NCBI GenBank assembly: GCA_015068085.1
Contig: SVLF01000009.1
Span: 1 to 64,000, forward strand
Direction of reading: 5' to 3'
DNA length: 64,000 bases
Source: Oscillospiraceae bacterium
GTDB taxonomy: Bacteria > Bacillota > Clostridia > Oscillospirales > JAAYXM01
Shown: positions 12,587-43,547 of the stretch, piece by piece
How the letters are laid out: each line of letters opens with the position of its first letter
How positions within the stretch are numbered: the stretch's first letter is position 1
Notes under the pieces: generated by a model
Told to the model about the DNA's origin: nothing
Seen by the model: the letters and a program-made list of their open reading frames with translations, nothing else
Database searches by the model: none
Position numbers and translations under genes: made by a program

Positions 12587-13567
12587 TCAAAACTGAGGTT
12601 TCGGATAGTCCCTCTTGTTTTCAACAACAATGTCCATAATTTGCTCAAAGCTTTTCCACTCAACGCGGTCGGAAATAAGACGCTTTATCCTTTCTCCCAC
12701 AAGATCAAGGATTTTCATTCCCGTTCCCAATCCGTTTGAAATCAGAGACTGCCAGTGCGTCACAAGTATCGGATATCCTCCGGTTTCAAGCACCCGAATA
12801 ATAGCCCCTCCCTTACCTTCATCGGTTATAAGCAAATCTGCGCGCGATCTGATATATTCATCGCTGCAGTCAGCAGTATGGATGCTGTCCCACATTACAT
12901 CGCGGGTTGTCGCCGGAATTGAAACAAGGCATCTTCCTTCCTCTTCAAGCTCAATCCACGGTTTTGCATTCGGAACATCACGCAGGCTGCGAAGAAAAAA
13001 CCATGCTTTTTTCTTTCCCGTAACATCATAAACCGCCTTCGATACAGAAGCCGTATATTCATCTTCGACAGCTCTCCCGAAAGTCCATGGAGAAGTGACT
13101 CCGAAGGCATCAAATCCCGCTTTATTAAGCAACGTCAAGGCTTTTGCTATATACGGAGTGATTTGGGTTCTGTCAGTTTGCGCCGCCCATTGCTCTTCAT
13201 TCATTTCGAGCGCCGCTCCGGTTTCTATATCCACCGCTTTATGGTGTGTAAGCATCTCCGGACCGATTGTGAAATTCGGAACAATACGCTTTTTAACCGT
13301 ACCGAGCCACTCGTTGAGTTCTTCTTCCGAATGCCCTTCTATTCCGCTCAGTATATCACCTTTATTTCCCGGCATAGGAACAACGCTGAATTTACCTTTT
13401 ATCCCATGCTTTTCAACAATGCCGCAAAAAACATCAAGAAAAGAGTTGGGATACACCGGAAGAAGCGGTCTTCCGTCATCGGTGAATTTCGGTTCATGAT
13501 GTTCATGATACACAGATATTATCGGAGCTGAATCATCAATGATTATGCTTATCGGAATCTTTTTCAT
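12587..13567 (-). CDS. Uncharacterised NodB-like (polysaccharide deacetylase superfamily) protein
   Basis: 326 residues, no signal peptide. The N-terminus MKKIPISIIIDDSAPII resembles the first strand and Asp-Asp of NodB-fold deacetylases, and later His and Asp residues (TIGPEMLTHH, LVTHWQS) are placed like metal ligands in a beta/alpha barrel. I do not recognise an experimentally studied member. GAGGTGG precedes the ATG chosen here; the track ORF starts 18 codons upstream. Last gene of cassette 1, 54 bases after nagA, so it probably acts on the same imported sugar. Deacetylation is a hypothesis only. Confidence 0.6.
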   Translation of the reverse strand: MKKIPISIIIDDSAPIISVYHEHHEPKFTDDGRPLLPVYPNSFLDVFCGIVEKHGIKGKFSVVPMPGNKGDILSGIEGHSEEELNEWLGTVKKRIVPNFTIGPEMLTHHKAVDIETGAALEMNEEQWAAQTDRTQITPYIAKALTLLNKAGFDAFGVTSPWTFGRAVEDEYTASVSKAVYDVTGKKKAWFFLRSLRDVPNAKPWIELEEEGRCLVSIPATTRDVMWDSIHTADCSDEYIRSRADLLITDEGKGGAIIRVLETGGYPILVTHWQSLISNGLGTGMKILDLVGERIKRLISDRVEWKSFEQIMDIVVENKRDYPKPQF

Positions 13568-13621
13568 TCTCAAGCCACCTCGTAAATTGTATTTTTTCAA
13601 GCTTAATATTGTACGGAACAT

Positions 13622-14806
13622 TTAATTCTCCGCTTTTTCAAAAACCGCTTTTCCGTTTACCATCGTAAGAGAAACATCTATATTTTCATCGAATATAAGT
13701 ATATCTGCATAACCGCCTTCGCGGATATGTCCGCGGTCGCGAAGCCTTGCCATACGCGCAGGATTTGCAGATGCCATTCTTACGGCATCAGGAAGCGAAA
13801 CGTCCGCAAGCTCAATCATATTACGGACAAGCCTGTTCGTTGTGCAGACGCTTCCTGCAAACGCCGAGCGGTCGGGAAGCTTTGCAACTCCGTCCTCTAT
13901 TATGAAGTTCGGGTTGTCAAAAAGCTTTTCCGAGCCGTCGGGAAGACCTGCACACGGAATTGCATCGGTAACAAGCGCTATTCTGTCAATGCCTTTAAAC
14001 TTCACTATAAACTTCAAAAGCGAAGGAGGAAGGTGACGCCCGTCGGCAATTATCTCAACATCCATCCCGTCTATCATATATGCAGCTTCCACTATCCCCG
14101 CATAACGATATGCGTTCTTGCGGTGAACCGTGCTGCAGCCGGAATAGAAATGGGTTATAAGTCCGTAGCCGAGATCATATGCACGCATAACACAATCGTA
14201 ATCCGCATCGGAATGACCTATTGATGCAACAATTCCGTATTCACGGAGCGCCTTTGCAAAAGCTTCCGTTCCCGGAAGCTCGGGCGCCGAGCTCCAGCGG
14301 ATAAGCTTATCTCCGTAGTTTTCAAGAATATACATATAATCCTCGGGTTTTGGCGGAGTCATATACTTTGCCATTTGCGCGCCTGCCTGAACCGGAGAAA
14401 AATACGGTCCCTCAAGATGAAGCCCCGGCATATGTGCGCCGATTGCCTTTTCCGAATTTATACGGTTGTATTCATCGAGAGTATTGAACATTTTTATGTA
14501 CGACTTGACCGAACCGGAAGAGCCTGACGGAAGCATAACGGTTGTGCCGTTGCGTGCGTGAAGCTTTGACACCTCAATAAAGGCCTCAAGCTCGCCTTTC
14601 CGCAAATCATATCCGTTGCCGCCGTGGACGTGCATATCAACAAAGCCCGGAGAAATGTATTTTCCCTGCGCGTCGTGCGATATGTCAAACGGAAGCTCTT
14701 CTTTTGTAACAGACTTAATTCTTTCCCCGTCCGTATATACTGCCGTACCTTCAGGAGCAAAAGTGTTTCCGAGGATTATCCGTCCGTTATGGAATTTATG
14801 TATCAT
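13622..14806 (-). CDS. nagA: N-acetylglucosamine-6-phosphate deacetylase (NagA-like amidohydrolase)
   Basis: Expected to deacetylate GlcNAc-6-phosphate or a close relative in the cytoplasm. The amidohydrolase barrel motifs are complete: PGFVDMHVHGGNGYD, LHLEGPYFSP with the metal-binding Glu, GHSDADYD, THFYSGC and LVTDAIPCAGLPDG with the catalytic Asp. Its 394 residues match NagA. No nagB deaminase is present in the window. Sitting inside a polysaccharide cassette it suggests that the degraded polymer contains an N-acetylhexosamine, or that the enzyme has drifted to another N-acetyl sugar phosphate. Confidence 0.87.
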   Translation of the reverse strand: MIHKFHNGRIILGNTFAPEGTAVYTDGERIKSVTKEELPFDISHDAQGKYISPGFVDMHVHGGNGYDLRKGELEAFIEVSKLHARNGTTVMLPSGSSGSVKSYIKMFNTLDEYNRINSEKAIGAHMPGLHLEGPYFSPVQAGAQMAKYMTPPKPEDYMYILENYGDKLIRWSSAPELPGTEAFAKALREYGIVASIGHSDADYDCVMRAYDLGYGLITHFYSGCSTVHRKNAYRYAGIVEAAYMIDGMDVEIIADGRHLPPSLLKFIVKFKGIDRIALVTDAIPCAGLPDGSEKLFDNPNFIIEDGVAKLPDRSAFAGSVCTTNRLVRNMIELADVSLPDAVRMASANPARMARLRDRGHIREGGYADILIFDENIDVSLTMVNGKAVFEKAEN

Positions 14807-14816
14807 AGCTTTTCAT

Positions 14817-15893
14817 CTACCCCCGCATTAAGATACTGATTATCTGTTTACCCACAATATCTGCCATACGGAAAAATCCCGCATCCGTCGGATGCACACC
14901 GTCCACTCTGCACGATTCGGAAAACGGACCTTCATACAGCTTCTTTCCGTCAATAAAATACACATTTTCATCTCCGCCGCTGCGCGCATCCGAATATGTT
15001 TTAAATGCGATATCCCTTTTTTTCTCAATATTTTTCAACACCGGTGCATCCGCCGCAGACATAATTATTATCGGTAACTCCGGTTGCTTTTCGCGTATTT
15101 TATTGAATATCTGTGCATGCGTTTCCTGCAGGTAATCCATAGAAGGTGCATTGTAATCAAAATCATAAACAAACGCACTCATATCAAGCTCTGATATGTA
15201 GTCCACAATCGGTTCGTTTCCCATCGGTGCACCGGAAAAACCCAGATTAATATAATCGCAGTCATATTCGTGTGAAATAAGTGCCGTATATGTATTTCCG
15301 GGACGCGATGCACATGCACCCTGCGTAATCGATGAGCCGTAATATACAACAGGCAGTTTGTATGTATACTCCGAGCCGGCAGATATCTCCGCATTTTCCT
15401 CAACTCCTATACAGAGCTCCTGCACCGGATTATACGGCGGAAAATTAATTATAATTTCCCGTTTTTTTCTCCCGCCGAAATGATAAACGGACGAATATCC
15501 GTCCTCTATGCCGGACGACGGCATAAAGCTGTTTATATGTCTCGATTTGCCATTTTCAAAAATATACATATCAAATCCGGACGTGCCCATAAGCTGCATA
15601 TGTGAAAACCTTGTTATATAAGGCATCACGCATCTGATTGCTATATATTCGGAATCAGTTGAAAAACGGACTCTCCCGCCCGCAGTCTGAGCGGACAGCC
15701 GTTCAATTTTCTCCCCGCCCGCCTTTGCAATTTCTTGCGGAAGACGCCGAAATCCGTTATTCAAATCGCATAAACCGTAAATGCGAAACGAAGGATTTTT
15801 GACATCATAAAAAACACAATCGGAAACGTCAATATTCTTCTTCACTTCCAAATTGCGATCTATCTTTCCTATATCATTTTTCAAATCTGTCAC
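14817..15893 (-). CDS. Two-domain SGNH/GDSL hydrolase, probable carbohydrate esterase
   Basis: Predicted O-acyl esterase acting on sugars. An N-terminal beta-sandwich (about 25-175) precedes an SGNH domain with block I VVYYGSSITQG (Ser188), block II Gly in LGFSG, an Asn in YDFDYNAP, and the catalytic Asp331/His334 in DGVHPTDAG. There is no signal peptide, so it should work inside the cell on imported oligosaccharides. The listed start is GTG; AGGTG lies better for the TTG three codons in, so the true start may be 9 bases downstream. It lies 10 bases before nagA. Confidence 0.83.
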   Translation of the reverse strand: MTDLKNDIGKIDRNLEVKKNIDVSDCVFYDVKNPSFRIYGLCDLNNGFRRLPQEIAKAGGEKIERLSAQTAGGRVRFSTDSEYIAIRCVMPYITRFSHMQLMGTSGFDMYIFENGKSRHINSFMPSSGIEDGYSSVYHFGGRKKREIIINFPPYNPVQELCIGVEENAEISAGSEYTYKLPVVYYGSSITQGACASRPGNTYTALISHEYDCDYINLGFSGAPMGNEPIVDYISELDMSAFVYDFDYNAPSMDYLQETHAQIFNKIREKQPELPIIIMSAADAPVLKNIEKKRDIAFKTYSDARSGGDENVYFIDGKKLYEGPFSESCRVDGVHPTDAGFFRMADIVGKQIISILMRG

Positions 15894-15913
15894 CTACATA
15901 TTCAAATTCATTT

Positions 15914-17797
15914 TTACAGCTGAACGCTTTTAAGCTCAAGTGACTCAAGCTCAACTGTTTTTTCTTTTCCGGAGTATATGATTTTCGCCTTTACTGGCAA
16001 GTCGTAATCCGTATTGAGAAGATAAACTTTATTCCCTTCATATACTGAATACCGAAGCCGGTCGCTTCCGATAACCCTTATATCGCAGTTTCTCGCGCTT
16101 GCGGATATCATTTCGCGAACCACCGCCCTGTACAGCAAATACACGGCAGGGTTTCCGGGATAGTTCACGTTCGTTACCAGGGTTGCAACGCCGAGTCCTG
16201 CCTTATTCTCAATTACCATCGGAAGGTCTGACGGTTTTTCCACGAAACTGTCGCTTGCAAATGCAATATTCTTACCGCCGCACGTTGCAAACCTCGCGTA
16301 ATCGGCATAGCCTGCCGTAAACATCGCATCACAGCCGCCGCTTCTGTAAGTAGGGTATAAAACCCGCTCATCAAGAGAGTCATATTTGAAATTCACTCCG
16401 CTTACAACGCGCCGTATCTCTCCCATAAACCTGCAGCCGAAAAGCGCTTCAACCTTCTCGTCGGATACCATCTTATACTCTCCGCCGCGCTTTGTCTGTG
16501 TATTCAGATGGGCTGCACTCATAACAAGATGCCCGCCGCGGCGAACATATTCCGTAAGCTTATCCATATTTTCCTCAGTCATAGTGTTCCAGCCAAGGAA
16601 GATAAGATAATCATAATTTGAAAGATGTTCAACATCCGCTTCTATGGGAACAACATCAAAAAGACCGTATGCGGGAGCAGACGAGGTGTCATATTCGCCG
16701 TAATTTTCCTGCTCATACCACACTCTTTTTCCTGCAAGCTCCTGAAGCATCATCCACGAGTGTTCTGCCTCGTTATATCCCCATTCCTCGCGGTAAAACT
16801 GATTGTACAGGCAGCTTCTGCCCCATTTTCCTGCCCAACCGTCATACAAGCCGGACACAAACGCAACCTTCACCCTAGGACCGCCTGCGGGTCTTTTTTC
16901 TTTACTTATATATTCGCGCATCCCGCGAAGAACCCTCTTGTAATTCTGACATACCTCCGAATCCCCGGAAAGCTTCGTGCCATATGAATTAATACCGGCA
17001 TCTCCGCTTTCGAGCATAAACATCCGGGAGCCCGAAAGGTAGGCATATTTGTATGTAAGCTCAAGACGCTTCATTTTCAGCGGATCATCATGCCGGAGAC
17101 CGCCGTACCATTCGTGAGCAACAAATGTACCCCACATTTTAGCATCAAAAGCATTTGCGGTTCCCCTGAAAATCGAAACCGCTATATCGGTATTTCCCGG
17201 ACATATTTCAAGAATCGGAATATCAATTCCTGCAAGAGCATTCTGTTTTGCAAATCCGTTGGCTTCAACGCAAAGTGCACCCGGGGTTCCGTTTCTTTTT
17301 GCCGTATTTACAAAACGCGCAAATGTATCAACATATCCCTCAAAGGCCTGCTTCATATCGTCGTACCGGTTCAGACGGAAATTAAGCCACTTTTTCCCGT
17401 AATTAGCCATATCAACCGAATCTTCTCCAATGTCGGTATAATATCCCGGCAGCTTGCAGGCATACATACTCCCGGGTTCACCAAAAAGCTCCCCAAGATA
17501 GTATTCACCTGCAATTTCTTTTACCCGCGCTATGGTTTCCGGTTCTATCCAGCTTTCTTTTCCCTCCGGCGGATACTGCGTAAGATAGTTATGAACAAAG
17601 TATATTTTGTTGTCCGCAAGATACCTTGCCCACTCTACAAAATATTCCTGAGAAAACACATCACAGTTTCTCGGACGCAGCGAGACAAAATTAAAGCCGT
17701 AATCTATACAGCGTTCCTTTATCTCGTCAATAATCTTTTCCGGAACAAAGCTATGCTCACCTATCTGCACTCCGTTGAGGATCACTTCTTTTTCCAT
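15914..17797 (-). CDS. Uncharacterised cytosolic TIM-barrel-like protein, possible glycoside hydrolase
   Basis: 627 residues without signal peptide or membrane helix. The first about 330 residues read like a glycosidase barrel (FVHNYLTQYPPEG, GEYYLGELFGEPGS, ALCVEANGF, FVAHEWYGG, with several Glu residues at strand ends). The middle, about 340-560, looks like a class I glutamine-amidotransferase-like Rossmann domain (LSNYDYLIFLGWNTMTEEN, YVRRGGHLVMSAAHLNTQT), an arrangement seen in GH42-type enzymes. A small beta domain closes the protein. I do not recognise a named family. AGGAG precedes the ATG. It follows the binding-protein gene after a hairpin-containing gap, so a role in breaking down the captured oligosaccharide is inferred. 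Confidence 0.6.
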   Translation of the reverse strand: MEKEVILNGVQIGEHSFVPEKIIDEIKERCIDYGFNFVSLRPRNCDVFSQEYFVEWARYLADNKIYFVHNYLTQYPPEGKESWIEPETIARVKEIAGEYYLGELFGEPGSMYACKLPGYYTDIGEDSVDMANYGKKWLNFRLNRYDDMKQAFEGYVDTFARFVNTAKRNGTPGALCVEANGFAKQNALAGIDIPILEICPGNTDIAVSIFRGTANAFDAKMWGTFVAHEWYGGLRHDDPLKMKRLELTYKYAYLSGSRMFMLESGDAGINSYGTKLSGDSEVCQNYKRVLRGMREYISKEKRPAGGPRVKVAFVSGLYDGWAGKWGRSCLYNQFYREEWGYNEAEHSWMMLQELAGKRVWYEQENYGEYDTSSAPAYGLFDVVPIEADVEHLSNYDYLIFLGWNTMTEENMDKLTEYVRRGGHLVMSAAHLNTQTKRGGEYKMVSDEKVEALFGCRFMGEIRRVVSGVNFKYDSLDERVLYPTYRSGGCDAMFTAGYADYARFATCGGKNIAFASDSFVEKPSDLPMVIENKAGLGVATLVTNVNYPGNPAVYLLYRAVVREMISASARNCDIRVIGSDRLRYSVYEGNKVYLLNTDYDLPVKAKIIYSGKEKTVELESLELKSVQL

Positions 17798-17847
17798 TTT
17801 GCTTTTCTCCTATAACTCTGTCAAATCAGGGGCGAAATTCTCACAAA

Positions 17848-17890
17848 GGACATTCACGAATGTCCCAAGGGCGATTTTTAAATCGCCCTT
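17848..17890 (-). terminator. Tandem hairpins between binding-protein gene and downstream genes
   Basis: Two adjacent stems lie in the 138-base gap: AAGGGCGATT/AATCGCCCTT (10 bp) and GGACATTC/GAATGTCC (8 bp). Downstream on the minus strand is only TTTGTG, so termination is probably partial. Such stems after a solute-binding-protein gene commonly let that gene outproduce the rest of an operon; that role is inferred. Confidence 0.5.
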
Positions 17891-17935
17891 GCATTTTTAT
17901 CCCGTGTATATCAAGCTTTATATTTCTCGCATAAT

Positions 17936-19498
17936 TTATTTGGAATAGCTTTGATACGCCGCCTCATAAACTGCGAGAACATCATTTATCGGAAGCCCTG
18001 AAAGCTCTTCCTGGAATTTGTCCCATTCGGAAAGCGGACGCTGACCGAGAACGAATTTCTGGATATTTTCGCTTACAAAAGTACCGAGGGATGTGCTGAG
18101 GTCTGAAATTTTCTGTGCATCATCAACGCTGAGACTCATATACAGCGTCGGATCGAGTTCGGGATATGTATACTCAAGTATGAAATCGGTTGTTGCTGCC
18201 TGCTCTGCCGAAACAGCTGCAACTGCAGCCTCCGGATCCACTCTGAGATAGGTTCCTATCGTCTGGAAGCCGTATACATTCTTTACCACGTCTCCGTCTT
18301 TGGGCAGAATGAACTTTTTCTTGCCGTCAACCACCTCAAACGTTTCACCTTCCTTACCCCAGCTTATCGTCTGAGAGCCTTCATCCGAATAGAACCAGTT
18401 GACATACCGCATTGCGTTTGCTATGCTTTCTTCGTTTCCGGTATTCAATACACCAAATCCCATAGGATCAAAATTATACTTGTTTACCATTGCAACTCCC
18501 ATACCGTTCTCAGCTACGGGAGGAGCCATTGCCGCAAGCGTGAATTCCGGATTGACACTTCTTGCAAGAGAATTGAAAAAGTCCATACGGGTCTGGTACT
18601 CCGGCATAATAAATCCGCGGTCTGTTGATACAAGCTCCTGCCATGTGGATGTGTTTATGGAGAAGAAATCAGCAGGCATAAGCTTTTCGTCAACCATCTT
18701 CTTGAGGAACGAAACGATATCATACATTACTTCGCTTTCAGTCGTTCCGTAGCTCCATTTTTCGTTTTCAAAGTCATAATAGAAAGAGTAACGGAAATTC
18801 GGCTTCCATGACGAGCCCATAACGTTTATGTTGCTGAAGCCTTCGCGTAAACAGAACGGGTAAGAATCCGGATATAACTGCTTAAGCTCTTTTGAAACCT
18901 CATAAAGCTCATCTATTGTCTTAGGAATTTCGAGACCGTGCTTCTTGAAAATATCCTCGCGATACATCCATGTTCTGATGTTCGTTGCACGCTCCATACC
19001 GTAAATGGGAGCATAGTAAATCTTACCGTCTGTACCTCTGCGGGTGTCTCTCATCCATTGCTCGCTTTCGGGAAGAGAATCCCAGAACGCGTTATAATCC
19101 GCAAGAAACTCTTCATAGTCATCCAACGCAACAAACGCTCCCTGCTCACAGAAGCTTGAAAATGTGTTTGAGCGTCCCTGAAAACCGATTACATCCGGAA
19201 AATGCTCGCGCGATGCCATTATTAAGTTGAATTTAGTTGCAAATTCAGATGTAGGGATTGACGTTACGTTTACAGTTCCGCCAATGGCCTCTTTAATATA
19301 CTGCCAGACCTTCCAGTTTGCATCATACGGCCACGAACTTACGCTTCCGATCGTCACATTCAAAACGGCGTCATCCGGAATAACCTTACCGTCCGGAATG
19401 TCGTAGGATACTTTATTCGACACTGAGCTGTTTTCTCCGCACGCACAAAGCGCGAAAAGCATAACGGTTGCAAGGGTTAATGCAATAAGTTTTTTCAT
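17936..19498 (-). CDS. Extracellular sugar-binding lipoprotein (ABC family 1), cassette 1
   Basis: 520-residue solute-binding lipoprotein: a signal peptide with lipobox (LFALCAC, lipidated Cys at about 19), then a family-1 binding fold with Trp/Tyr-rich patches (SSWPYDANWKVWQYI). GGAGG precedes the ATG; the track ORF begins 15 codons earlier, inside the preceding gene. The stop of the giant SLH gene is only 19 bases upstream, so the two are co-transcribed. It is clearly paralogous to the lipoprotein of cassette 2 (same MKKLIA.TLATVMLFALCACG leader). No ABC permease or ATPase gene lies anywhere in the window, so its transport partner must be encoded elsewhere. Confidence 0.88.
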   Translation of the reverse strand: MKKLIALTLATVMLFALCACGENSSVSNKVSYDIPDGKVIPDDAVLNVTIGSVSSWPYDANWKVWQYIKEAIGGTVNVTSIPTSEFATKFNLIMASREHFPDVIGFQGRSNTFSSFCEQGAFVALDDYEEFLADYNAFWDSLPESEQWMRDTRRGTDGKIYYAPIYGMERATNIRTWMYREDIFKKHGLEIPKTIDELYEVSKELKQLYPDSYPFCLREGFSNINVMGSSWKPNFRYSFYYDFENEKWSYGTTESEVMYDIVSFLKKMVDEKLMPADFFSINTSTWQELVSTDRGFIMPEYQTRMDFFNSLARSVNPEFTLAAMAPPVAENGMGVAMVNKYNFDPMGFGVLNTGNEESIANAMRYVNWFYSDEGSQTISWGKEGETFEVVDGKKKFILPKDGDVVKNVYGFQTIGTYLRVDPEAAVAAVSAEQAATTDFILEYTYPELDPTLYMSLSVDDAQKISDLSTSLGTFVSENIQKFVLGQRPLSEWDKFQEELSGLPINDVLAVYEAAYQSYSK

Positions 19499-19517
19499 TT
19501 TGTTTACTCCTCCGTTC

Positions 19518-22500
19518 TTACTTGCTTTGCAGGGGCATTTCACTGCCCGTTGCTGTATAATCCATTATTCTCTTTATGAGTACTGCCACTTCTGCTCTTG
19601 TTGTATAATCTGCCGGTGCAATAAGCCCGTTTTTGCCGTTGACAAGACCTGCACCGATGAGCGCGGTTACTGCTTCGCGTGCGTAAGGTGCAACGGATGC
19701 ATAATCCTCATTTTTCGGTTCGTCGTAAACGCCGAACTCTACATTGAGCTTCTGTAGTACCCTGCAGACTATCACCATCATATCCTGACGGGTGATATTG
19801 TTGCGCGGTGCATAGCGGTTATCTCCTATACCGCTGACGATTCCTGTATTGCGTGCAATCACAAGTTCAGGTGCGAAGTAGTCTGCGGCAGATACGTCTG
19901 CAAAGTTCTCCGTGTTATCCGACGTGAGCCTGAACGCACGTACAAGCAGCAGTGCAAAGTCTGCGCGGGTTATGTTGCTTGCCGGCGAGAATGTTGTTTC
20001 CGATGTTCCGCGGATTACACCGCCGTCGGCAAGCGCGTTGATTGCGTTCTCCGCCCATGCGTGGTTAGAAAGGTCTGTGAAACGGAGTGTCTCCGTTTCA
20101 CCCGACGCGTCGGGTGCGTTTTCGGTGTTATTTTCATCAGATTTGTTTTCTTCCTGCGGGGTATCGGATGATCCGGCCCCTGCATCAGTACCGGAAGCAG
20201 CTCCGGTATCCGGTGCGGCACCGCCGCCACCGCCTCCTCCGCCGCCGGCAGAACCGTTTGCATTTTCCGAAGAACCATCAGACGGACGGTCGGAAGCTCC
20301 AGTCCCTGCACCATCCTGTGAGGGTTCATTCTTACTGCCCGTTGTGTTACCGTAAACCGTTACAGTAAAGTGAACCGTGCTTTCACGTCCGTCGCTGTCA
20401 CGCGCGGTTACTGCTACGTGGTTATCGCCAACCTGGCTGTCATCCGGTCTCCATGTGAACACGCCGGTTTCCGCATTAAGGCTTGCGCCTCGCGGAAGAG
20501 TTGTTCCGATGTAGGTGATCGACGGTGCATTGTTCTCAATGGGACTGTTCGCCTGTATTCCTACGTTTATCGAGCTTCCTGCCGATGTGCTTAACGTATT
20601 GGATATCGGCTCAAACTCCGGAACACTTCCGTCCACAAACGATGTCGGAATGCGGAAGCTCTGCCCTTCCTTAATATTGTACACATATCCGAGCTCCGTG
20701 TTCTTCTTATCCTTGTGCTTTCGGATAAGTGTAACGGTACCGAGATAAAGACGTACGTTTCCTTCCGCAAGCTCTTCCGCTTCATCGGTCGCGCTCTCTA
20801 TTTTATACACACCGTTTTCGACGGCATCATTATCTACATAGATGTATCTTCCTGCAATATCGGAAATGTCATCGCAATCAATATCAACATCAATGTAGTT
20901 TTCAATGGCAAGCTCCTTCTGGAAGGAAACTACCTTTCCTGTATACGCACCTGTTTTTTCGGTGGCGTCACCGATAACCGTACCGTCATTTATATAACGG
21001 TAAATCACGGCATCATTTCCGTTAAGTGTGTATACACCGACAAATCCCGAAAAATCGAATATATCTTTTTCCTGTCCGTTTTCATCTGTATCCCGTACCG
21101 TATACGTAACCTCATTGTTCGTTGCGTATATCACGTAATCCGTGAAAAGCTCTCCGCCGTTTTCGCGGACAACCTTAACGGCACGGACAATATCTCCCTC
21201 TTTTTCAGTTCCGTGCTTTACGACTGCAGTGACCGCGTCCGTCGATACTATATACGGAGTGTCACGGTACGGTTCAAAAACCGTAGTAAACAGACTGTCA
21301 AGCTTCTCATTTTCAGCTCCCTGCCTTTTTACAAGCACATAGTCCATAGTTTCCGGAAGCATCTTTGTGTCCGACCTTTTATGCATATAACCGCCGGCAA
21401 TTGCGACCTCACTTGCAGCAAAATTATTAAGCTGCGTCATACGGAGCTTAATTCCTTTTCCGTTCTTGAGAATCTTGCGATAGTCCTGTACATCAAACTC
21501 AACCGTAAACTTTTCTTCGGGCGAAGCGTCACGGCGGACATTTTTCAGCCACGTATATCCCCGCGGATATCTTGTTTCATACTCCCACGCATCCATTGTG
21601 TCCGGGTCTTCTCCGAAAGCGGCCTCCGGACCCGCATAAGAGCCCACAATATCATTGCCTTTCTCATCCTGTACCACGGGATCCTGAACTAACGAAAGCC
21701 CTTCTACCGGATATGCGTTTTCTGCCTGCGAGTGGAAGCTATAGGTATGCGTGTTTCCTCCGGTTACACGGAAAAAATCTATCGCATATTCAACATCGTC
21801 GTTTGCTTTAACGGAAACAAGTGTCCGTCTGTAGTTTTCCGTTTCGTTATATGCCTCTTTGTAGTCAACATCCACAAGCTTCACATCACCCGCATCATCA
21901 AAATGAAGCGGAGTTCCGTGTATTTTCGTCCGGTTTACAAGCTGCTCCTTTTCATTGACAACTACCGTGTTATGCGAAAGCGTTGTCCGCGTCCACTGCA
22001 GACGGCTCGGAAGATAGCTTGTTGTTTCAGGATATCCCAGATCCGGAGCAATGTCAAGTCCGAATGCATCCATACCAAGATTAAGTCCGTCACGGTGTGA
22101 ATGCTCCGCACCGATTCTGCCGAACCAAACCCAGAAGTCGCGCATATTGTTTACTTCCGTCAAAGCACTTGCCGAGCTATGATATTTTCCTCCGCGAAGC
22201 GCTGCAAATCCGTAACCGGTGAGCATCCCGCTTCCCAGACTGAAATCCCCTTTCTCGTCTATATACGCCAGAATATCCTCGTCTAAGCCCTCCGGATTTT
22301 CCGAAAAGATTCCGTAGGTTACTCCGTCCAGATTTCTGCCGGACATTTTATAGATATACTCTGCTACTTTCTTCTTATATTCTTCGTCGTCAAGATTCAT
22401 AAACAGGTCAAACCACGCAGACGTCGAACCGTTAACGCTTACACCCGCTGTTTCTCCCGAGTCGGCAATTGTCGGATGCTTGTTTTCAGTCAGAAGAATA

Positions 22501-25500
22501 TTCACCTGCGGATCGTGCATTTTCAGGAACTTCACAAGCTCATAAGGCTGATAATTTCCGCTTCCCTTGTATTTTGCCGCCGCACGTGCGAATACCGAGA
22601 AATTCGAAACCCAGCTTGTATTGTATCTCGGAGAGGCTTCATTTCCCATTCCGTCGCGGTCAACATCGTCAACCAATGTGGAAATGAAATTTCCGCCGAC
22701 GATATTTGTTTTCTCATCACCGGTATTCGTTCTGTATATCCATTCCATGATCTGATCGGTTTCCGGCTGCTTGTCTATAACAATTGCCGCAACCGCCGCA
22801 ACGCCCTGCGCATTACCGACATTCCCGACCATTCTGCCGTCCTGCAGCATCTCAAAGGATGCCAGGATAATTCCCTCTTCCCAATTCTTCCAGATTTTTG
22901 CAGAGCTTGATTTGTCATTTTCCAGCCCAAGCTTCTCTGCTCTTTTCGACAGCTCTTTTATCAGCTGCGGGTCTTCAAGAACGGGATAAAGCATATCCGC
23001 CGCGAATATGGTAGCTTTTCCGAAATACGACTCGTTTGTTCTTCCGAGAGCTGCTCCGTATCCGGCGCCGCCGTGTGTGTTGAGGAATTTATCCTTGAAA
23101 TAGTACATATCAAAATCCGGATAAAGATCTGCCGCACGGTCAAGCAGGAGTGCACCTGCCCGCCCATATTTCACATCATTTGTATACAGATATGCTTCAG
23201 CAAGGGTCTCCACCGTCAGATAAAGCTGTTCCCAGATTCTGAGGTTATACAAAGCTATATACCCTATGCGTTCTTCAAGACCGTCGGCATAGATACGTCC
23301 GGGGACATACCCCCATCCGTCATCTACGCCCCACATATCTCCGCCCTGCCACAGGACCTTACCGTTTTCATCCTTGTATGTACCGAGATCTGCTCCGCCG
23401 TTTTTGTCATTCCACGTTATCTTCTCGCCCCATGGGTCAGTGTTGCTTTTTCTTATTTCCTCGTAAAGCTCGTTATAGAGATACCCGTCCGGATTTCCGT
23501 ATCCGTAGAAGATGAACCATTCCGGTGTGTTTGCCTTTGCCGGCTTTTTGCATGTGCATTCCTCTCCGTCCGGATGGAAAAGCATCTTGTGGTGAGCCTC
23601 TCTTGCACGGTCTACACTGTAATACCCCTGTCTGTCAAGCCCGAGCTCACGGAAGCTTTCAAAATCGTTTGTCGGGAAAAGGCGCTTACACGCGTTGCAC
23701 TGTATCTTCCACGGGCGTTCAACAAAGTTGTACGATGTTCCGTGTATGTTGTAATAATCTTCCCCGCAATAACGGCAATAATTATAATAGTCATCGCCGC
23801 GCACACCGATCTGTCTTCCGCGCGGAAGCCCCTCGCCGGTCATTTGCTCCAGCATTGCGTCGACCAGCGGAAGCACCTTATCCGCATCTTTTATTGCGCT
23901 TTTCTGAGTTTCCTTTGCCCATTCATACTTTTCAATGTTTTTCTGCGCATTCTCACGCATTTCATATGTGTAATATGTAGGCTCGTCTTTTCCGTTGTCA
24001 AGGATAACGGTTACGTTCCTCTCAACGGATATCGGAGTTCCGTGAAGGTCTGCCGTCACTTCAAGTCTGAAGCTTCCCTCTCCTGTTATTTTGAGCATAT
24101 TTCCGGAAACTTCCACAACGCCTTCGCCGTTTACGGAATCAACCGTAATATTCTCTTCCGTAAGCGGAATATCTATCCTGTTATCGCTGTTCATCACCGC
24201 CACAAGCTTCAGAAGCTTTTTTTCGCGGACGTATAATATGTCATCGACATTGAAATCGATTTCCCTTATACCAGTATTGTCAATTACATTGAACTGAACA
24301 GTCTCGCTCAATTCACTTTCTCCGTCGCTTACCGTTACCTTTATACGCGCCTGCCCGTTGCCGACACCTCGCACAAGGCCCGTTCCGGTTACCGTGGCAA
24401 CGCTCTCGTCAAGCGAGCTGTAGCGGATATCCAAGCCTTCCAAAGGAACGGCATTTCCGTTAAGCTTTCTTACAATCAGCGAAAGCTGTGCCGTTGCTTC
24501 AAATTCGTTTGTATTGTATTTTATCTCGTATGTATCGGCGCTTATATTAAGCTCTCTGATTCCGTTCATTCCGTCAAGAGTGAAATTCCCCGCAAGCGCA
24601 CGCAACGTACCGTCCGGAACTGCATCTTCCGCCTCCTCCGGATTTTTTACTACAGGGCAGAAAACGAGATAGTATTCTCCCGCCTCCAGGACACGCTTTT
24701 TTAAAGGCGCCGTCTTCATTGTAGCATCTGCGGAAGCGCTGTCCGTACAAAGCACAGAGCCTATCATATTTTTCGCGGTCAGGTTTTCGCTTGTAAGTAC
24801 ATTTTTGTCTTCCTCACCGGCAACCACCGGAATGAGGTGATAGTTCATATAAACGTCAAACGGCATCGTTTTTCTCTGTCCGTTTTCATTAACGGCAAAG
24901 TCTCCGTCAATTTTATACTGCGTGGTATTCTTGTACGTGCCGTATGAAACCTTCGGCTGATATATCCCGCCTTCTTCAACACGGATTTTTATCGCCCACC
25001 AGTTATCGCGCATTGCACGGATGGCAATACCGCGCCCTTCCATATAAACGAGATCCGCACCGCTTGTTGTCGTTGTGTTCACTCCATAGTCCGTCCACCA
25101 GTACGACAAACGGCGGTTACCGGCATATGCCCACAAATTGTTGTTGGTTTCATATGTAAAGTCGGTAAACAAAATGCTTGTATCCTTTGAATTTCCCATA
25201 CGGCTTGCTATGTCGTATGTAACAACAACATCCGGAATAGCCGGAGGTTCAACCGTAAGATGCAGTGTTTCCGATACCGACACTCCTTTGTTTTCAACCG
25301 TCACGGTTATATCGGTTTCACCGCGTCCTATGCGCTCAATAACGCCGTTTTTGTCCACGGATATCAGTGTTTCATCATATCCGGAGTATATGGCCTCCGC
25401 ATCTTCAATAACCTCTCCGTCCGACATATATGCGGCCACGTCAAGGTCATACGCATCGGCGCCCAGCACATCGATCTCCATGGGGACACCCTCGGCATTT

Positions 25501-26252
25501 ACGCCTCCGTCAAGAATAAAATCTCCGGCGATGCCGCGCAGGGTTGAGGTGGTTTTATCATATCCTGCCGGCCTCTGCGGAAAATTAACCGTAACAGGAA
25601 CAAAAACAAGATAGTATTCACCCTTCTTAAACTCACGGGGCGCGAATTCATCCGTTGAAGCAATAACCGATGTTCCGTCTCCGCCGCTCCCGTTTGTACA
25701 ATTGACGCTGCCGATAAGATTCTGCGGCACAATAAAGGCGTCGCTTTTAAGATCCGTGCTCACGCCCGCATCGCTTACCGGAACAAGATAGTAATTCATT
25801 CTCACTTCAACCGGATCCGTAGTTATCATGGGATTTGTTCCCGTTGTATCTGTGAAGTACACATTGTTCTTGTAAGTTCCGTAATAAGCATACGGCTGAT
25901 AATAACCGGTTTTCGGCACATTTATCTTTATTGCCCACCAGTTGTTATAATCCGAGCGGATGGCGATACCGCGGCCTGATCTGTAAGCAAAATGTGAACC
26001 GCTTGACGGAGGAACATCCGTCCCGCCGCTCGCCCAGCTGTATGCCGATCTGCGGTTCGCGGCATATTCCCACATTTTATGATTTTTTGCATATTTAAAA
26101 TCAGAAAATTTGGCGCTTGAATTTGCCATGCTTCCGGAAATGTTATATACAAGCTTCACTCCCGAAAGCTCCGGCGCTTCTTCTGCAGATACCGAAGGAA
26201 ATAACGGTATAAGCAGGGAAACCGCCAGAATCAATGATAAAATCCGTTTCAT
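19518..26252 (-). CDS. Giant secreted heparinase II/III-like protein with Ig-like and SLH domains, cassette 1
   Basis: 2244 residues. Order: signal peptide (1-23); two copies of a roughly 220-residue beta-sandwich-like module (31-253 and 341-563), each followed by a Big_2-type Ig domain; a further Ig-like stretch to about 750; a helical heparinase/alginate-lyase-type domain from about 760; a heparinase II/III-like beta domain about 1345-1750; an Ig-like He_PIG domain (1880-1968); a Gly-rich linker with nine Gly in a row; three SLH domains (2058-2232). Cys826/829 and Cys852/855 form a CxxC...CxxC site followed by RLFPTNDFESF. HSHRDG (His1384, His1386, Asp1388) and SHNTVVV (His1427) mark the likely lyase centre. 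It should be tethered to the wall by SLH and cut an extracellular polymer, probably uronate-containing. Substrate unknown. Confidence 0.83.
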   Translation of the reverse strand: MKRILSLILAVSLLIPLFPSVSAEEAPELSGVKLVYNISGSMANSSAKFSDFKYAKNHKMWEYAANRRSAYSWASGGTDVPPSSGSHFAYRSGRGIAIRSDYNNWWAIKINVPKTGYYQPYAYYGTYKNNVYFTDTTGTNPMITTDPVEVRMNYYLVPVSDAGVSTDLKSDAFIVPQNLIGSVNCTNGSGGDGTSVIASTDEFAPREFKKGEYYLVFVPVTVNFPQRPAGYDKTTSTLRGIAGDFILDGGVNAEGVPMEIDVLGADAYDLDVAAYMSDGEVIEDAEAIYSGYDETLISVDKNGVIERIGRGETDITVTVENKGVSVSETLHLTVEPPAIPDVVVTYDIASRMGNSKDTSILFTDFTYETNNNLWAYAGNRRLSYWWTDYGVNTTTTSGADLVYMEGRGIAIRAMRDNWWAIKIRVEEGGIYQPKVSYGTYKNTTQYKIDGDFAVNENGQRKTMPFDVYMNYHLIPVVAGEEDKNVLTSENLTAKNMIGSVLCTDSASADATMKTAPLKKRVLEAGEYYLVFCPVVKNPEEAEDAVPDGTLRALAGNFTLDGMNGIRELNISADTYEIKYNTNEFEATAQLSLIVRKLNGNAVPLEGLDIRYSSLDESVATVTGTGLVRGVGNGQARIKVTVSDGESELSETVQFNVIDNTGIREIDFNVDDILYVREKKLLKLVAVMNSDNRIDIPLTEENITVDSVNGEGVVEVSGNMLKITGEGSFRLEVTADLHGTPISVERNVTVILDNGKDEPTYYTYEMRENAQKNIEKYEWAKETQKSAIKDADKVLPLVDAMLEQMTGEGLPRGRQIGVRGDDYYNYCRYCGEDYYNIHGTSYNFVERPWKIQCNACKRLFPTNDFESFRELGLDRQGYYSVDRAREAHHKMLFHPDGEECTCKKPAKANTPEWFIFYGYGNPDGYLYNELYEEIRKSNTDPWGEKITWNDKNGGADLGTYKDENGKVLWQGGDMWGVDDGWGYVPGRIYADGLEERIGYIALYNLRIWEQLYLTVETLAEAYLYTNDVKYGRAGALLLDRAADLYPDFDMYYFKDKFLNTHGGAGYGAALGRTNESYFGKATIFAADMLYPVLEDPQLIKELSKRAEKLGLENDKSSSAKIWKNWEEGIILASFEMLQDGRMVGNVGNAQGVAAVAAIVIDKQPETDQIMEWIYRTNTGDEKTNIVGGNFISTLVDDVDRDGMGNEASPRYNTSWVSNFSVFARAAAKYKGSGNYQPYELVKFLKMHDPQVNILLTENKHPTIADSGETAGVSVNGSTSAWFDLFMNLDDEEYKKKVAEYIYKMSGRNLDGVTYGIFSENPEGLDEDILAYIDEKGDFSLGSGMLTGYGFAALRGGKYHSSASALTEVNNMRDFWVWFGRIGAEHSHRDGLNLGMDAFGLDIAPDLGYPETTSYLPSRLQWTRTTLSHNTVVVNEKEQLVNRTKIHGTPLHFDDAGDVKLVDVDYKEAYNETENYRRTLVSVKANDDVEYAIDFFRVTGGNTHTYSFHSQAENAYPVEGLSLVQDPVVQDEKGNDIVGSYAGPEAAFGEDPDTMDAWEYETRYPRGYTWLKNVRRDASPEEKFTVEFDVQDYRKILKNGKGIKLRMTQLNNFAASEVAIAGGYMHKRSDTKMLPETMDYVLVKRQGAENEKLDSLFTTVFEPYRDTPYIVSTDAVTAVVKHGTEKEGDIVRAVKVVRENGGELFTDYVIYATNNEVTYTVRDTDENGQEKDIFDFSGFVGVYTLNGNDAVIYRYINDGTVIGDATEKTGAYTGKVVSFQKELAIENYIDVDIDCDDISDIAGRYIYVDNDAVENGVYKIESATDEAEELAEGNVRLYLGTVTLIRKHKDKKNTELGYVYNIKEGQSFRIPTSFVDGSVPEFEPISNTLSTSAGSSINVGIQANSPIENNAPSITYIGTTLPRGASLNAETGVFTWRPDDSQVGDNHVAVTARDSDGRESTVHFTVTVYGNTTGSKNEPSQDGAGTGASDRPSDGSSENANGSAGGGGGGGGGAAPDTGAASGTDAGAGSSDTPQEENKSDENNTENAPDASGETETLRFTDLSNHAWAENAINALADGGVIRGTSETTFSPASNITRADFALLLVRAFRLTSDNTENFADVSAADYFAPELVIARNTGIVSGIGDNRYAPRNNITRQDMMVIVCRVLQKLNVEFGVYDEPKNEDYASVAPYAREAVTALIGAGLVNGKNGLIAPADYTTRAEVAVLIKRIMDYTATGSEMPLQSK

Positions 26253-26319: not shown

Positions 26320-28176
26320 TTATTCTGCTGGATTTACGGATACATACTTGGTCTTGTAGCTTGCGCCATTGTCCAATGTATAAATAATGTATCCTGTTGC
26401 TTCTAATGTTCCTTCTTCCGGAACGGTGAACTGGTTATGCTTTTCTTTTCTCTGCGAGGTGTAAGTCTTTATGGATGCAGTATCTTTACCGAAAATGATA
26501 CCTGCTTCAACGATTTCATAGTCACCTGCATCATATTCAAGCATATATGCCTTGTGTGCATCGCTATAATCAAGAATTGCAACAGGAACTTTGTCTGTTA
26601 TTTCTTTAGTTCCTTCCGTGATATCCGTTGCATCCCATACGTTAAACTTATAAGTAGTGCCGTATGCTACAGGTTCTCCGTCACGCAGCCATGCAGTATT
26701 TGCGTTTGCCTTGTTAAGCTCTACCGGTGCGTTGTAAGTACCTGCATCAGCTACTGCTGCACCATTGTGCTTTACACCTGTAATCGCAGATGCAGTATAC
26801 TGTGCAACTGCGTTTGTTGTACCTGCAGCAAGCGTCTGCTTTGCTGTGAATGGCTTGTTTCCGTCTGTGAACCATCCAAGGAATGTTCCAAAGCCTGTAA
26901 GTTTCGGTGTGAAGAGCGTAGTCTGCTCATTATATACGCTTTCTGTCATAGAGCCGATGTATGCACCATTCTGATTCCAAAATGCTACATTTTTATTATC
27001 CTCTTTTTCATAAACAGCTGTGAGGTATGTATTTGACCAGACAGAATACGTATCGCCGTCAATATCAACCCATGCATTTTTATCAGAGGTATCTGCTCCG
27101 CGCTTCCAGCCTACAAATTTGTAACCTTCAATGTTCTGTTTATGAGCAGTTAATGTTACCGACTCTCCGCGGTTAACAGAATCAACGGCAATTCCGGTAA
27201 ACCCGTCAATATTTGTTGTCTGTGCAAAGGAAACTTCTCCATACGCAGTTTCGTCCTCTTCCGGTTCTTCTGCCGGTGCGGTGACGGTTACCGTAACAGC
27301 GGTAGACTTGGTTCCGTCCGATGTTTCTGCCCAGATTTCTGCTTCGCCGCCTGCCTGCGCGGTGATCTCTCCGTTTGCAGTTACCGTCGCAACTCTTTCA
27401 TTTGATGATTTGTACGTAATAAAGCTTCCTGCAACAGGCCTTTCAACACGGGTTTCATCTGTTCCGTCCGTTGTGCCGGTAACCTTAACAGATGCTGTTG
27501 TTGTCACGTTTTCTTCAAGATCAAGAGAAACATTTTCAACCGATGTCACAAAAGTATGACCAAGGATTTTTGTAAGTGAAACAGCATTGAATTCATAATT
27601 ATTACTACCTTTAAGTTCTAAAGCCGTTATCAGTTCGCTTTCGCCATCGGAATACACTGCTTTTCCGGCAGAATATGTCGAGTTAAAATATCCGGCCAGT
27701 GAAGTTGACGCTATGTTATTCGCAGGAACAGCATATTTATCATACGTATCCTTTCCGGAAACGTAATCTGCCATATACCAGTTAAAATCTCTGCCTCCAG
27801 ATGCGGTGTTATTTACACCGACAGAAGGAATATAGAAACCTTCAGAAGCAGGTGCTTTCAATGCCAATGAAAACTGAGCTGTAACACCTTTGTCTTTCAT
27901 GTACATTCGCACAGGTCCTCCGCTAAGCATAAGCAAAACATTGGAGTTTGTTAACGCCTCGACAGCATCCGGAGCATCGAAATAGCGCCAGTTTGTGTTT
28001 CCAATCGCCGTTTCTTCGATTACTGCATTGTATACCGTAATAGTTGTAAGCGAGCGAGCAACACCCGTTTTCGGATAAGCGTACGTCTCCGTATACGGTT
28101 CTTCAGCTGCAAAGGCAGCAGGGATAAGCGAAAATACGAGCGCGATTGTGATAAGTGCCGATAATAATCTTTTCAT
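26320..28176 (-). CDS. Secreted Ig-like/InlB-repeat protein, cassette 1 companion
   Basis: 618 residues, no named family. Signal peptide 1-23 (AAFA|AEE); an N-terminal beta-rich module (about 28-205) resembling the modules at the start of the giant protein; a Big_2 Ig domain (about 210-300: YKSSNERVATVTANGEITAQAGG); two InlB B-repeat-like units (about 310-465, with GYKFVGW and FGTFLGWF); and a C-terminal domain (about 466-618) shared with the 570-aa protein of cassette 2 (VEAGIIFGK here, IKEAGILFGK there). There is no SLH domain, LPXTG motif or lipobox, so it should be released or held non-covalently. Carbohydrate binding is inferred. An AraC-site promoter lies directly upstream. Confidence 0.75.
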   Translation of the reverse strand: MKRLLSALITIALVFSLIPAAFAAEEPYTETYAYPKTGVARSLTTITVYNAVIEETAIGNTNWRYFDAPDAVEALTNSNVLLMLSGGPVRMYMKDKGVTAQFSLALKAPASEGFYIPSVGVNNTASGGRDFNWYMADYVSGKDTYDKYAVPANNIASTSLAGYFNSTYSAGKAVYSDGESELITALELKGSNNYEFNAVSLTKILGHTFVTSVENVSLDLEENVTTTASVKVTGTTDGTDETRVERPVAGSFITYKSSNERVATVTANGEITAQAGGEAEIWAETSDGTKSTAVTVTVTAPAEEPEEDETAYGEVSFAQTTNIDGFTGIAVDSVNRGESVTLTAHKQNIEGYKFVGWKRGADTSDKNAWVDIDGDTYSVWSNTYLTAVYEKEDNKNVAFWNQNGAYIGSMTESVYNEQTTLFTPKLTGFGTFLGWFTDGNKPFTAKQTLAAGTTNAVAQYTASAITGVKHNGAAVADAGTYNAPVELNKANANTAWLRDGEPVAYGTTYKFNVWDATDITEGTKEITDKVPVAILDYSDAHKAYMLEYDAGDYEIVEAGIIFGKDTASIKTYTSQRKEKHNQFTVPEEGTLEATGYIIYTLDNGASYKTKYVSVNPAE

Positions 28177-28308: not shown

Positions 28309-29370
28309 TTATTTCCTGATATCGTCATACGCATAATCAAGGCCGAGTCCGCGGAGATCTGCAACAACATTGTTTTTCTCTGCATTGTACATTTCCCATA
28401 TAACGCGCAGGCTCTGCAATGCTGAACGTGCATCCGTTATCGGTCTCTTTCCTGTATTTAAGCAGTCGATGAAATGCTCTACCTCATAGTTTGTGTAAAC
28501 ACCGGTCTGGTCCGCTTTCCATATTACGCTGTAGCTCGTCCGTTCTTCAACACCCGGAACGTGGTCAAGCATTGCATTGTACAAACGGATTTCTCCCTTG
28601 GTATATTCAAGCAGACCCTTTTCGGTATGAATCTGATACGAGCTTCCGAAGCGCGTGCCGCGTGCTCCCCACGTTGCGCCGTGGTATCCTATCGCTCCGT
28701 TTTCAAACTTAAACGAAGCAACGCTTGTTCCCTCTTCTATAATCCACTCCGTACCGACGCGTGTGCCGAAATGCGCGCCCGAAACAGGATTTCCGAGGAA
28801 GCGCATAAGAAGATCCACATAATGGCAGCCGTGGCTGAAAAACTGACCGCCGCCGAGACGTGAGGTTGCGCCCCAGCCGACCATTCCGTCCGGATTCTTT
28901 GAACGTACAAGCTGTTCTGTCCAGATTGACATCTGAATGATTCTTCCGTAATCGCCGCTGTCAACAAGCTCTTTAAGCTTTACGATACCCGGCAGAAACG
29001 GAACGGGATACGCACACATAAATGTCAGATTTTTTTCATCGCATAACGCAATGAGGTTAAGGCATTCCTGCTCGCTGTTGCACAGCGGCTTTTCCATGAG
29101 AAGATGCTTGCCGTGTGTCGCAAAAAACATGCCACATTCATAATGCAGATCATGCGGAACGGCAATCAGAACCGCATCAACGTAATCTAAAATAGTGTGA
29201 TAATCCGTTGTTATGTAGGGATCGTCCAGAACCTCCGCAGCTGCCTGTGCGTTTTCAAGCTTCACATCGCAGACAGCGGTAATCTCCAGCCCCTGAACCC
29301 TTTTCACACCGCGCAGATGGTTTCCCATCATTTTTCCGCATCCGACAACACCTAATCTTACTTTTTTCAT
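28309..29370 (-). CDS. Gfo/Idh/MocA-family NAD(P)-dependent oxidoreductase, cassette 1
   Basis: 353 residues, cytosolic. The N-terminal Rossmann fold starts VRLGVVGCGKMMGNH, the catalytic-type EKPLCNS motif is present, and the C-terminal alpha/beta substrate domain contains GGGQFFSHGCHYVDLL with the His commonly used in catalysis. Members oxidise or epimerise sugars and cyclitols, and some (GH109) cleave glycosides through NAD. Strongly paralogous to the gene at 45331. As first gene of cassette 1, divergent from its AraC regulator, it probably handles the monosaccharide product. Specific reaction unknown. Confidence 0.87.
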   Translation of the reverse strand: MKKVRLGVVGCGKMMGNHLRGVKRVQGLEITAVCDVKLENAQAAAEVLDDPYITTDYHTILDYVDAVLIAVPHDLHYECGMFFATHGKHLLMEKPLCNSEQECLNLIALCDEKNLTFMCAYPVPFLPGIVKLKELVDSGDYGRIIQMSIWTEQLVRSKNPDGMVGWGATSRLGGGQFFSHGCHYVDLLMRFLGNPVSGAHFGTRVGTEWIIEEGTSVASFKFENGAIGYHGATWGARGTRFGSSYQIHTEKGLLEYTKGEIRLYNAMLDHVPGVEERTSYSVIWKADQTGVYTNYEVEHFIDCLNTGKRPITDARSALQSLRVIWEMYNAEKNNVVADLRGLGLDYAYDDIRK

Positions 29371-29452: not shown

Positions 29453-29510
29453 ATTATACTCTTACCGCATGAAAAAGTACATAGACTAAAAAGTTCAAAA
29501 CTTGTACTAT
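29453..29510 (-). promoter_or_regulatory. AraC-type operator B and promoter of the Gfo/Idh gene
   Basis: The second copy of the 23-base element (29488-29510) lies upstream of a minus-strand ATGTAC-18-TATAAT promoter leading into the oxidoreductase gene. Relative to site A about 7 bases are inserted between the element and the -35-like box. Both promoters therefore share operator and a non-consensus -35, as expected for co-activation. Confidence 0.55.
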
Positions 29511-29525
29511 CTAAGAGGTTTTACT

Positions 29526-30494: not shown

Positions 30495-30523
30495 TTGACA
30501 TTTGTGTGTTTATGTGGTATTAT
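30495..30523 (+). promoter_or_regulatory. Sigma-A promoter for the deoR-phosphodiesterase-MFS operon
   Basis: TTGACA, 17-bp spacer, TATTAT. Transcription would start about 18 bases before the deoR ATG, leaving GGAG at the extreme 5' end of the mRNA. Confidence 0.8.
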
Positions 30524-30547
30524 GTGGGATATGGAGTTGGTGTATTG

Positions 30548-43484: not shown

Positions 43485-43525
43485 TTTCGGAATTCTCCTT
43501 TCCCGTTCTTCTTTACCTATGCGTT

Positions 43526-43547
43526 GGGCGGACAAAATTGTCCGCCC
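43526..43547. other. Intercistronic hairpin between the 570-aa and 2829-aa genes
   Basis: GGGCGGACAA pairs perfectly with TTGTCCGCCC over a 2-base loop. It occupies the same position as the cassette 1 hairpin at 26278 although the sequence differs. No T-run follows on the minus strand. Confidence 0.55.

Follow-up and report, generated by a model that had tools for sequence, protein, structure and literature searches.

A polysaccharide-use cassette with an unusual cytosolic tail in a ruminant-gut clostridial lineage: candidate steps for the breakdown of an acidic glycan

Introduction

Which glycan is processed by four tightly spaced genes that follow a giant surface lyase, and how would the cell deal with the unsaturated uronyl end that such a lyase leaves behind? 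The question is raised by positions 12587-17797 of a 64,000-nucleotide stretch of an Oscillospiraceae genome, the whole of which is called the window here. A first-pass annotation had read these genes as encoding a TIM-barrel-like protein, an SGNH esterase, NagA and a NodB-like protein, which together would deacylate imported oligosaccharides containing an N-acetylhexosamine inside the cell. It had further suggested that the TIM-barrel-like protein of 627 residues, or the Gfo/Idh enzyme of the same cassette, takes the place of an unsaturated uronyl hydrolase (GH88/GH105).

Results

Layout of the cassette

The locus belongs to a familiar type of polysaccharide-use cassette, probably one of many in this genome, and its cytosolic tail is unusual. 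Its features are as follows.

12587-13621, minus strand: 344-aa protein of an unrecognised family with only a remote NodB/GH57-superfamily resemblance (weak fold model)
13622-14806, minus strand: NagA-family deacetylase with an altered phosphate loop (TIGR00221, residue alignment)
14817-15893, minus strand: putative esterase with GxDLY and Lipase_GDSL_3 (SGNH) domains, without signal peptide (Pfam profiles; S188, N248, D331, H334)
15914-17797, minus strand: 627-aa protein of GH42 architecture, first gene of the tail (AlphaFold, Foldseek, weak GLMA_2nd and GH42M matches)
17847-17891, minus strand: two near-perfect inverted repeats, adjacent to each other, in the interval that separates the four-gene tail from the binding-protein gene
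17936-19543, minus strand: lipoprotein-type solute-binding protein (SBP_bac_1) of an ABC importer (profile match, N-terminus)
19518-26252, minus strand: 2244-aa SLH-anchored heparinase II/III-type protein (PF07940; motif residues conserved in relatives)
26320-28176, minus strand: 618-aa secreted Big_2-domain protein, upstream in the cassette (profile match, N-terminus)
28309-29370, minus strand: Gfo/Idh/MocA oxidoreductase, upstream in the cassette (profile matches)
29502-30398, plus strand: divergent AraC-type regulator with a cupin domain (profile match)

The four tail genes are consecutive open reading frames, all on the minus strand and transcribed from 17797 to 12587 with spacings of 20, 10 and 0 bp, in the order 627-aa protein, SGNH protein, NagA and 344-aa protein. 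A hydrophobic N-terminus, called by a heuristic rather than by a signal-peptide program, is absent from all four products and present in the neighbouring surface and binding proteins. The sequence supports a reading of the four genes as a predicted intracellular, operon-like tail to the extracellular lyase and its importer. Each of the inverted repeats at 17847-17891 occurs nowhere else in the window, and the pair could possibly form mRNA hairpins that set the expression ratio between the binding protein and the enzyme genes. The four-gene combination has no second instance in the genomes compared and is not conserved as a unit, and relatives of its SGNH and 344-aa genes occupy other contexts; the set is therefore weak evidence for one defined glycan. 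Between this cassette and the second one of the window, a DeoR regulator, a type I phosphodiesterase and an MFS transporter stand in a row on the plus strand (30506-33269).

A large expansion of giant lyase-like proteins

The 2244-aa protein, with its catalytic domain at about 20616-23978 of the window, scores 33.2 bits against PF07940 (cut-off 24), and the residues of the lyase active-site motif (Asn, Tyr, His, Asp and His) are invariant in the aligned relatives and copies. Its similarity to solved structures is marginal, the best match being the alginate lyase AlgL17 (E 0.002). The genome as a whole contains 69 PF07940 matches, mostly in open reading frames of 2000-3200 aa, two of which lie in the window (19518-26252 and 34995-43535). 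Taken together, the open frames of the 69 comprise 165,357 codons and cover about 496 kb, equal to 15.6% of the assembly. In three congeneric genomes, 59, 57 and 21 such matches were counted.

The joint presence of a heparinase II/III-type enzyme, an importer and NagA, with GH88 and nagB in the genome, would fit a classical host glycosaminoglycan of the hyaluronan, chondroitin or heparan type, broken down by a Streptobacillus-like route with GH88 drawn from another contig. The glycosaminoglycan cluster of Streptobacillus moniliformis encodes PL12/PL8 lyases, a sulfatase, GH88 and an 'aldouronate'-type ABC importer (PMC5430744). However, in profile searches none of the cassette genes matched PL8, a sulfatase or GH88, and the marginal similarity of the lyase to solved structures also speaks against such a target, which we consider improbable.

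The 627-aa protein has a GH42-like scaffold

The description of the 627-aa protein as TIM-barrel-like was borne out by structure prediction. Its AlphaFold model (pLDDT 90.7) consists of a TIM barrel with further domains, and Foldseek matched it, with probability 1.00, to GH42, GH35-GlmA and GH164 structures (E 1e-15 to 1e-20) and to a beta-1,2-glucosyltransferase. The fold is thus of the GH42 multi-domain type. No family profile passed its cut-off, GLMA_2nd reaching 21.8 (cut-off 27.7) and GH42M 17.2 (cut-off 25.8). We located conserved acidic residues on the barrel by combining the model's DSSP assignment with manual mapping of the strands. E107, at the end of strand 4 where the acid/base glutamate is expected, and E197 on strand 6 are present in 53 of 53 relatives, and E263 on strand 8 in 51 of the 53. 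At the strand-7 position of the clan GH-A nucleophile, E229, only 41 of the 53 carry glutamate and the rest have G, V, S, A or N; a reading of E229 as the nucleophile, made on the first 22 sequences, was dropped on this wider alignment. Two paralogs (L053:8644-10554 and L012:6296-8383) read AHAW and PHNW on strand 7, where most members have AHEW. Given the conserved glutamates on strands 4, 6 and 8 and the variable position on strand 7, the modelled protein is probably a glycosidase-like enzyme of an undescribed family, whose glycosidase chemistry is putative because the usual clan GH-A nucleophile position is not conserved.

The family has 14 copies in the genome. Its relatives are found in Clostridia from the gut of goats, sheep and buffalo, in further Clostridia, some of them digester-type metagenome-assembled genomes (MAGs), and also in Paenibacillus, Lentisphaerae, Armatimonadota, Planctomycetes and Bacteroidales. 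Eight of the 14 genes lie within 10 kb of a lyase match, which by position alone is not significant (P about 0.13) because lyases are so common that up to 39% of the genome falls within this distance; we accordingly rejected a statistical enrichment of the family near lyases. We tentatively propose, with less than even confidence, that the 627-aa protein founds a new glycosidase (or lyase or transferase) family, in which a GH42-like scaffold would carry a shifted catalytic set and the 14 copies would act as cytosolic processors of the products of the 69-member lyase family.

A NagA variant with an altered phosphate site

The identification of NagA holds: the protein scores 229.6 bits against the TIGR00221 equivalog, just above the cut-off of 225.65, and alignment to the Thermotoga maritima and Bacillus subtilis enzymes finds the metal ligands and the catalytic aspartate intact (H59, H61, E132, H198, H219, D281). 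A NagA copy elsewhere in the genome (C95) reaches 287 bits. In solved NagA structures the substrate phosphate is contacted by an asparagine, a backbone alanine and a conserved arginine (PMC6016474). In the window protein the asparagine is replaced by S222 and the alanine by G223, the arginine is kept (R234), and the dimer-interface loop carries a four-residue insertion within the motif HRKNAYRYAG, which starts at residue 228. NagA enzymes deacetylate the monosaccharide GlcNAc-6-phosphate, and those tested are inactive on unphosphorylated GlcNAc (PMC6016474). As known NagA enzymes need the 6-phosphate, the NagA step would act on a phosphorylated monosaccharide and not on the imported oligosaccharide, and because the phosphate-contacting asparagine is a serine here, the substrate may differ from GlcNAc-6-phosphate. 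Therefore, while the intracellular location of the set stands and an N-acetylhexosamine is plausible, deacylation of the imported oligosaccharide itself does not fit the NagA step.

In a DNA search, the HRKNAYRYAG motif turned up four times in this genome and a single time across 390 further genomes of the class. The sole outside copy (G191) has a NagB-family gene directly upstream and three Gfo/Idh genes downstream. Within the genome, the NagA genes of the window cassette (C65, window 13635-14814) and of a sister cassette (C37, L012:10246-11425) are 87.5% identical in DNA and their flanking genes 67-69%, which indicates that NagA moved between cassettes recently by exchange or conversion. A 95%-identical NagA occurs in a sister cassette with a GlcNAc-2-epimerase-family gene. 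The nagB gene of the genome, the G191 NagA beside its NagB-family neighbour, and the recurrence of NagA with 2-epimerase-family genes make an N-acetylhexosamine in the substrate plausible and the best single reading.

The NagA genes on C69 and C95 belong to different operons, and we rejected them as part of the same system. The C69 operon (L015:3475-11327) encodes IolB, an aldolase, a PfkB kinase, NagA, a NagB-like protein and an FGGY kinase, possibly an aminocyclitol or amino-sugar route; its KduI/IolB gene was discarded as a sign of uronate catabolism because it is IolB and not KduI.

The SGNH protein and the 344-aa protein

Both domains of the SGNH protein match their profiles far above cut-off (GxDLY, 95 bits; Lipase_GDSL_3, 115.8 bits), and the Ser-Asp-His triad is present (S188, D331, H334). 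The two-domain architecture and the lack of a hydrophobic N-terminus thus agree with the first-pass annotation. Esterase activity is predicted from the sequence in a family, Lipase_GDSL_3, that had no characterised member as of a 2022 review (PMC9487903); a literature search found no mention of GxDLY. The O-acylated glycan that had been proposed is likewise a prediction from this triad. Most genomes of the taxonomic family contain relatives of 45-55% identity, among them genomes where a relative of the 627-aa protein was not found, and in two sister species these relatives adjoin Gfo/Idh genes. With relatives so widespread and in other contexts, the window copy looks recruited.

The 344-aa protein, whose true start is likely M19 at about 13567, did not live up to its description as NodB-like. 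It has no meaningful sequence match in Pfam, NCBIfam or PDB (for Pfam and PDB even at E up to 10), and its fold is modelled with low confidence (pLDDT 66.8). Foldseek ranks a GH57 4-alpha-glucanotransferase first, followed by the peptidoglycan deacetylase PdaC and CmCBDA, among many other TIM barrels. D29-D30 are present, and E122-x3-H126 stands where NodB has H-x3-H. With the H-x3-H motif and the profile missing, we rejected an assignment to the CE4 deacetylases; on the fold model, 'NodB-like' is a lead, not an assignment. Relatives of this protein are encoded in another operon, together with xylose-isomerase-like and Gfo/Idh genes, and members of the family stand beside GNAT-type N-acyltransferase genes (L060:3144-8307 and L152:951-3287, with a matching operon at L061:9367-14966). 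The closest relative, at 65%, comes from another taxonomic family, hinting at lateral transfer of the gene.

Genes elsewhere in the genome resolve the GH88 puzzle

No GH88/GH105 gene was found in the window, as had been noted at first pass, and genes elsewhere answer the puzzle that this poses: two GH88/105 genes are present in the genome, both on other contigs. One (C72) directly follows a binding protein 60% identical to that of the window (17936-19543). The other, on C78, belongs to a region that contains heparinase II/III genes; about 9 kb away from it is a paralog with 86% identity to the binding protein of the second cassette. A canonical nagB, encoding GlcN6P deaminase, is found on C143 (295 bits, cut-off 237). 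The genome search that the first-pass annotation had called for thus recovers both functions, and of its proviso that GH88/GH105 genes might lie elsewhere under the same control, the first half is what we find.

A replacement of the unsaturated uronyl hydrolase in the cassette, whether by the 627-aa protein or by the Gfo/Idh enzyme, could draw on the copy numbers, 14 of the 627-aa family against two GH88/105 genes, and on the lack of GH88 in the window. However, loci in two other genomes (L121:2921-9157 and L130:8001-14245) share a conserved run in which a 627-aa relative is directly followed by GH88, with a calcineurin-like phosphoesterase and Gfo/Idh in the run as well, so that the three enzymes probably do different jobs there. 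In addition, the fold of the 627-aa protein is a GH42-like TIM barrel and not the alpha/alpha-barrel of GH88. We rejected the 627-aa protein as a GH88 substitute on the co-occurrence of both in one operon, and regard replacement in the cassette as very improbable. The same run also encodes a 307-311-aa protein with a FIDD motif at its start and no Pfam match.

The contents of sister cassettes bear on the nature of the glycan. The C37 cassette combines a lyase, two 627-aa genes, NagA, a GH28-like gene and a 2-epimerase, and a cassette of a sister species (G005) has a 627-aa gene, NagA, a GH28-like gene and an epimerase. In G005, moreover, a single gene run unites GH88 and a glucuronoyl-esterase-like gene with genes for a lyase, a binding protein and a 560-aa protein. 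The run at L219:1-12801, all on one strand, comprises GH88, a glucuronoyl-esterase-like gene (PF22244, 82 bits), a 2529-aa heparinase II/III protein, a 560-aa secreted protein and a binding protein, a content that suggests uronate esters in the substrate. The genome is related to 'Oscillospiraceae' MAGs of the ruminant gut, and the relatives are ruminant-hindgut and digester-type MAGs.

Several of these observations would suit a plant acidic polysaccharide rich in glucuronate or galacturonate as the target, with the NagA variant acting on another substrate or having simply been shuffled in out of a different cassette: the GH28-like genes of the sister cassettes, the glucuronoyl-esterase-like gene next to GH88 and a lyase in the sister species, the ruminant-hindgut and digester-type origin of the relatives, and a NagA that was recently exchanged and has an altered phosphate loop. 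Against it stand the neighbours of the NagA variant: in another genome the variant lies beside a NagB-family gene, and in sister cassettes beside a member of the GlcNAc-2-epimerase family. We hold a plant target of this kind to be unlikely, though less so than a host glycosaminoglycan.

Discussion

A candidate pathway

The reading that we favour, although we put it no higher than evenly balanced, is that the cassette tail dismantles oligosaccharides of an acidic glycan by way of the 627-aa protein, the SGNH protein and NagA, with GH88 and nagB encoded elsewhere. Gene order, domain identities, the occurrence of GH88 and nagB, and the return of 627-aa, NagA, epimerase and lyase genes in sister cassettes are observed, whereas the following catalytic steps and substrate are what we infer. 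Outside the cell, the SLH-anchored heparinase II/III-type lyase would cut an acidic polysaccharide into oligosaccharides, which the binding protein would deliver to the ABC importer. In the cytosol, the 627-aa enzyme would most likely hydrolyse one of the glycosidic bonds in the oligosaccharide, the SGNH protein would remove an ester group, and either of the two GH88/105 enzymes encoded elsewhere would take off the unsaturated uronyl end left by the lyase. The released N-acetylhexosamine would be phosphorylated by a kinase encoded elsewhere, the cassette itself containing none, which counts against the proposal, and the phosphorylated sugar would then pass to the NagA variant for deacetylation and on to NagB (C143). 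The 344-aa protein would probably serve as an accessory hydrolase or deacylase of the NodB/GH57 superfamily.

If this is true, an uncultured ruminant-gut clostridial lineage spends about one sixth of its assembly on giant surface lyase-like proteins, some of them paired with an uncharacterised family of GH42-like enzymes. The substrate of one cassette, once found, would reveal a major niche for uronic-acid glycans in the hindgut; it would also assign a first function to the 627-aa family, which is spread over several phyla, and perhaps to Lipase_GDSL_3 as well. Of the features described here, the lyase expansion and the uncharacterised 627-aa family merit further study.

Comparison with known systems

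The 344-aa protein has a weak fold match and an Asp-Asp motif in common with NodB/CE4 deacetylases and GH57, but differs from NodB/CE4 in lacking a profile match and in having E-x3-H for H-x3-H. Bacterial NagA (TIGR00221) and the window enzyme share metal ligands, catalytic aspartate and the phosphate-binding arginine; the window enzyme departs from it by the exchange of asparagine for serine at the phosphate contact and by the four-residue insertion. GH42 beta-galactosidases, the GH35 exo-beta-D-glucosaminidase GlmA, GH164 and the Ignavibacterium beta-1,2-glucosyltransferase combine a TIM barrel with a trimerisation-type second domain and a further domain, as does the 627-aa protein, whose identity to these enzymes is about 12% and whose strand-7 nucleophile position is not conserved. 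For the SGNH protein, both domains and the catalytic Ser, Asp and His match Lipase_GDSL_3 proteins with a GxDLY N-terminal domain (PF14606/PF14607; PDB 4lhs). At the level of the whole cassette, PL8, sulfatase and GH88 are absent, the lyase is a 2244-aa SLH-anchored protein, and the 627-aa, SGNH and NagA genes are present, all unlike the cluster of Streptobacillus moniliformis, with which the cassette nevertheless shares a heparinase II/III-type lyase, an ABC importer with its binding protein and the cytosolic processing of oligosaccharides.
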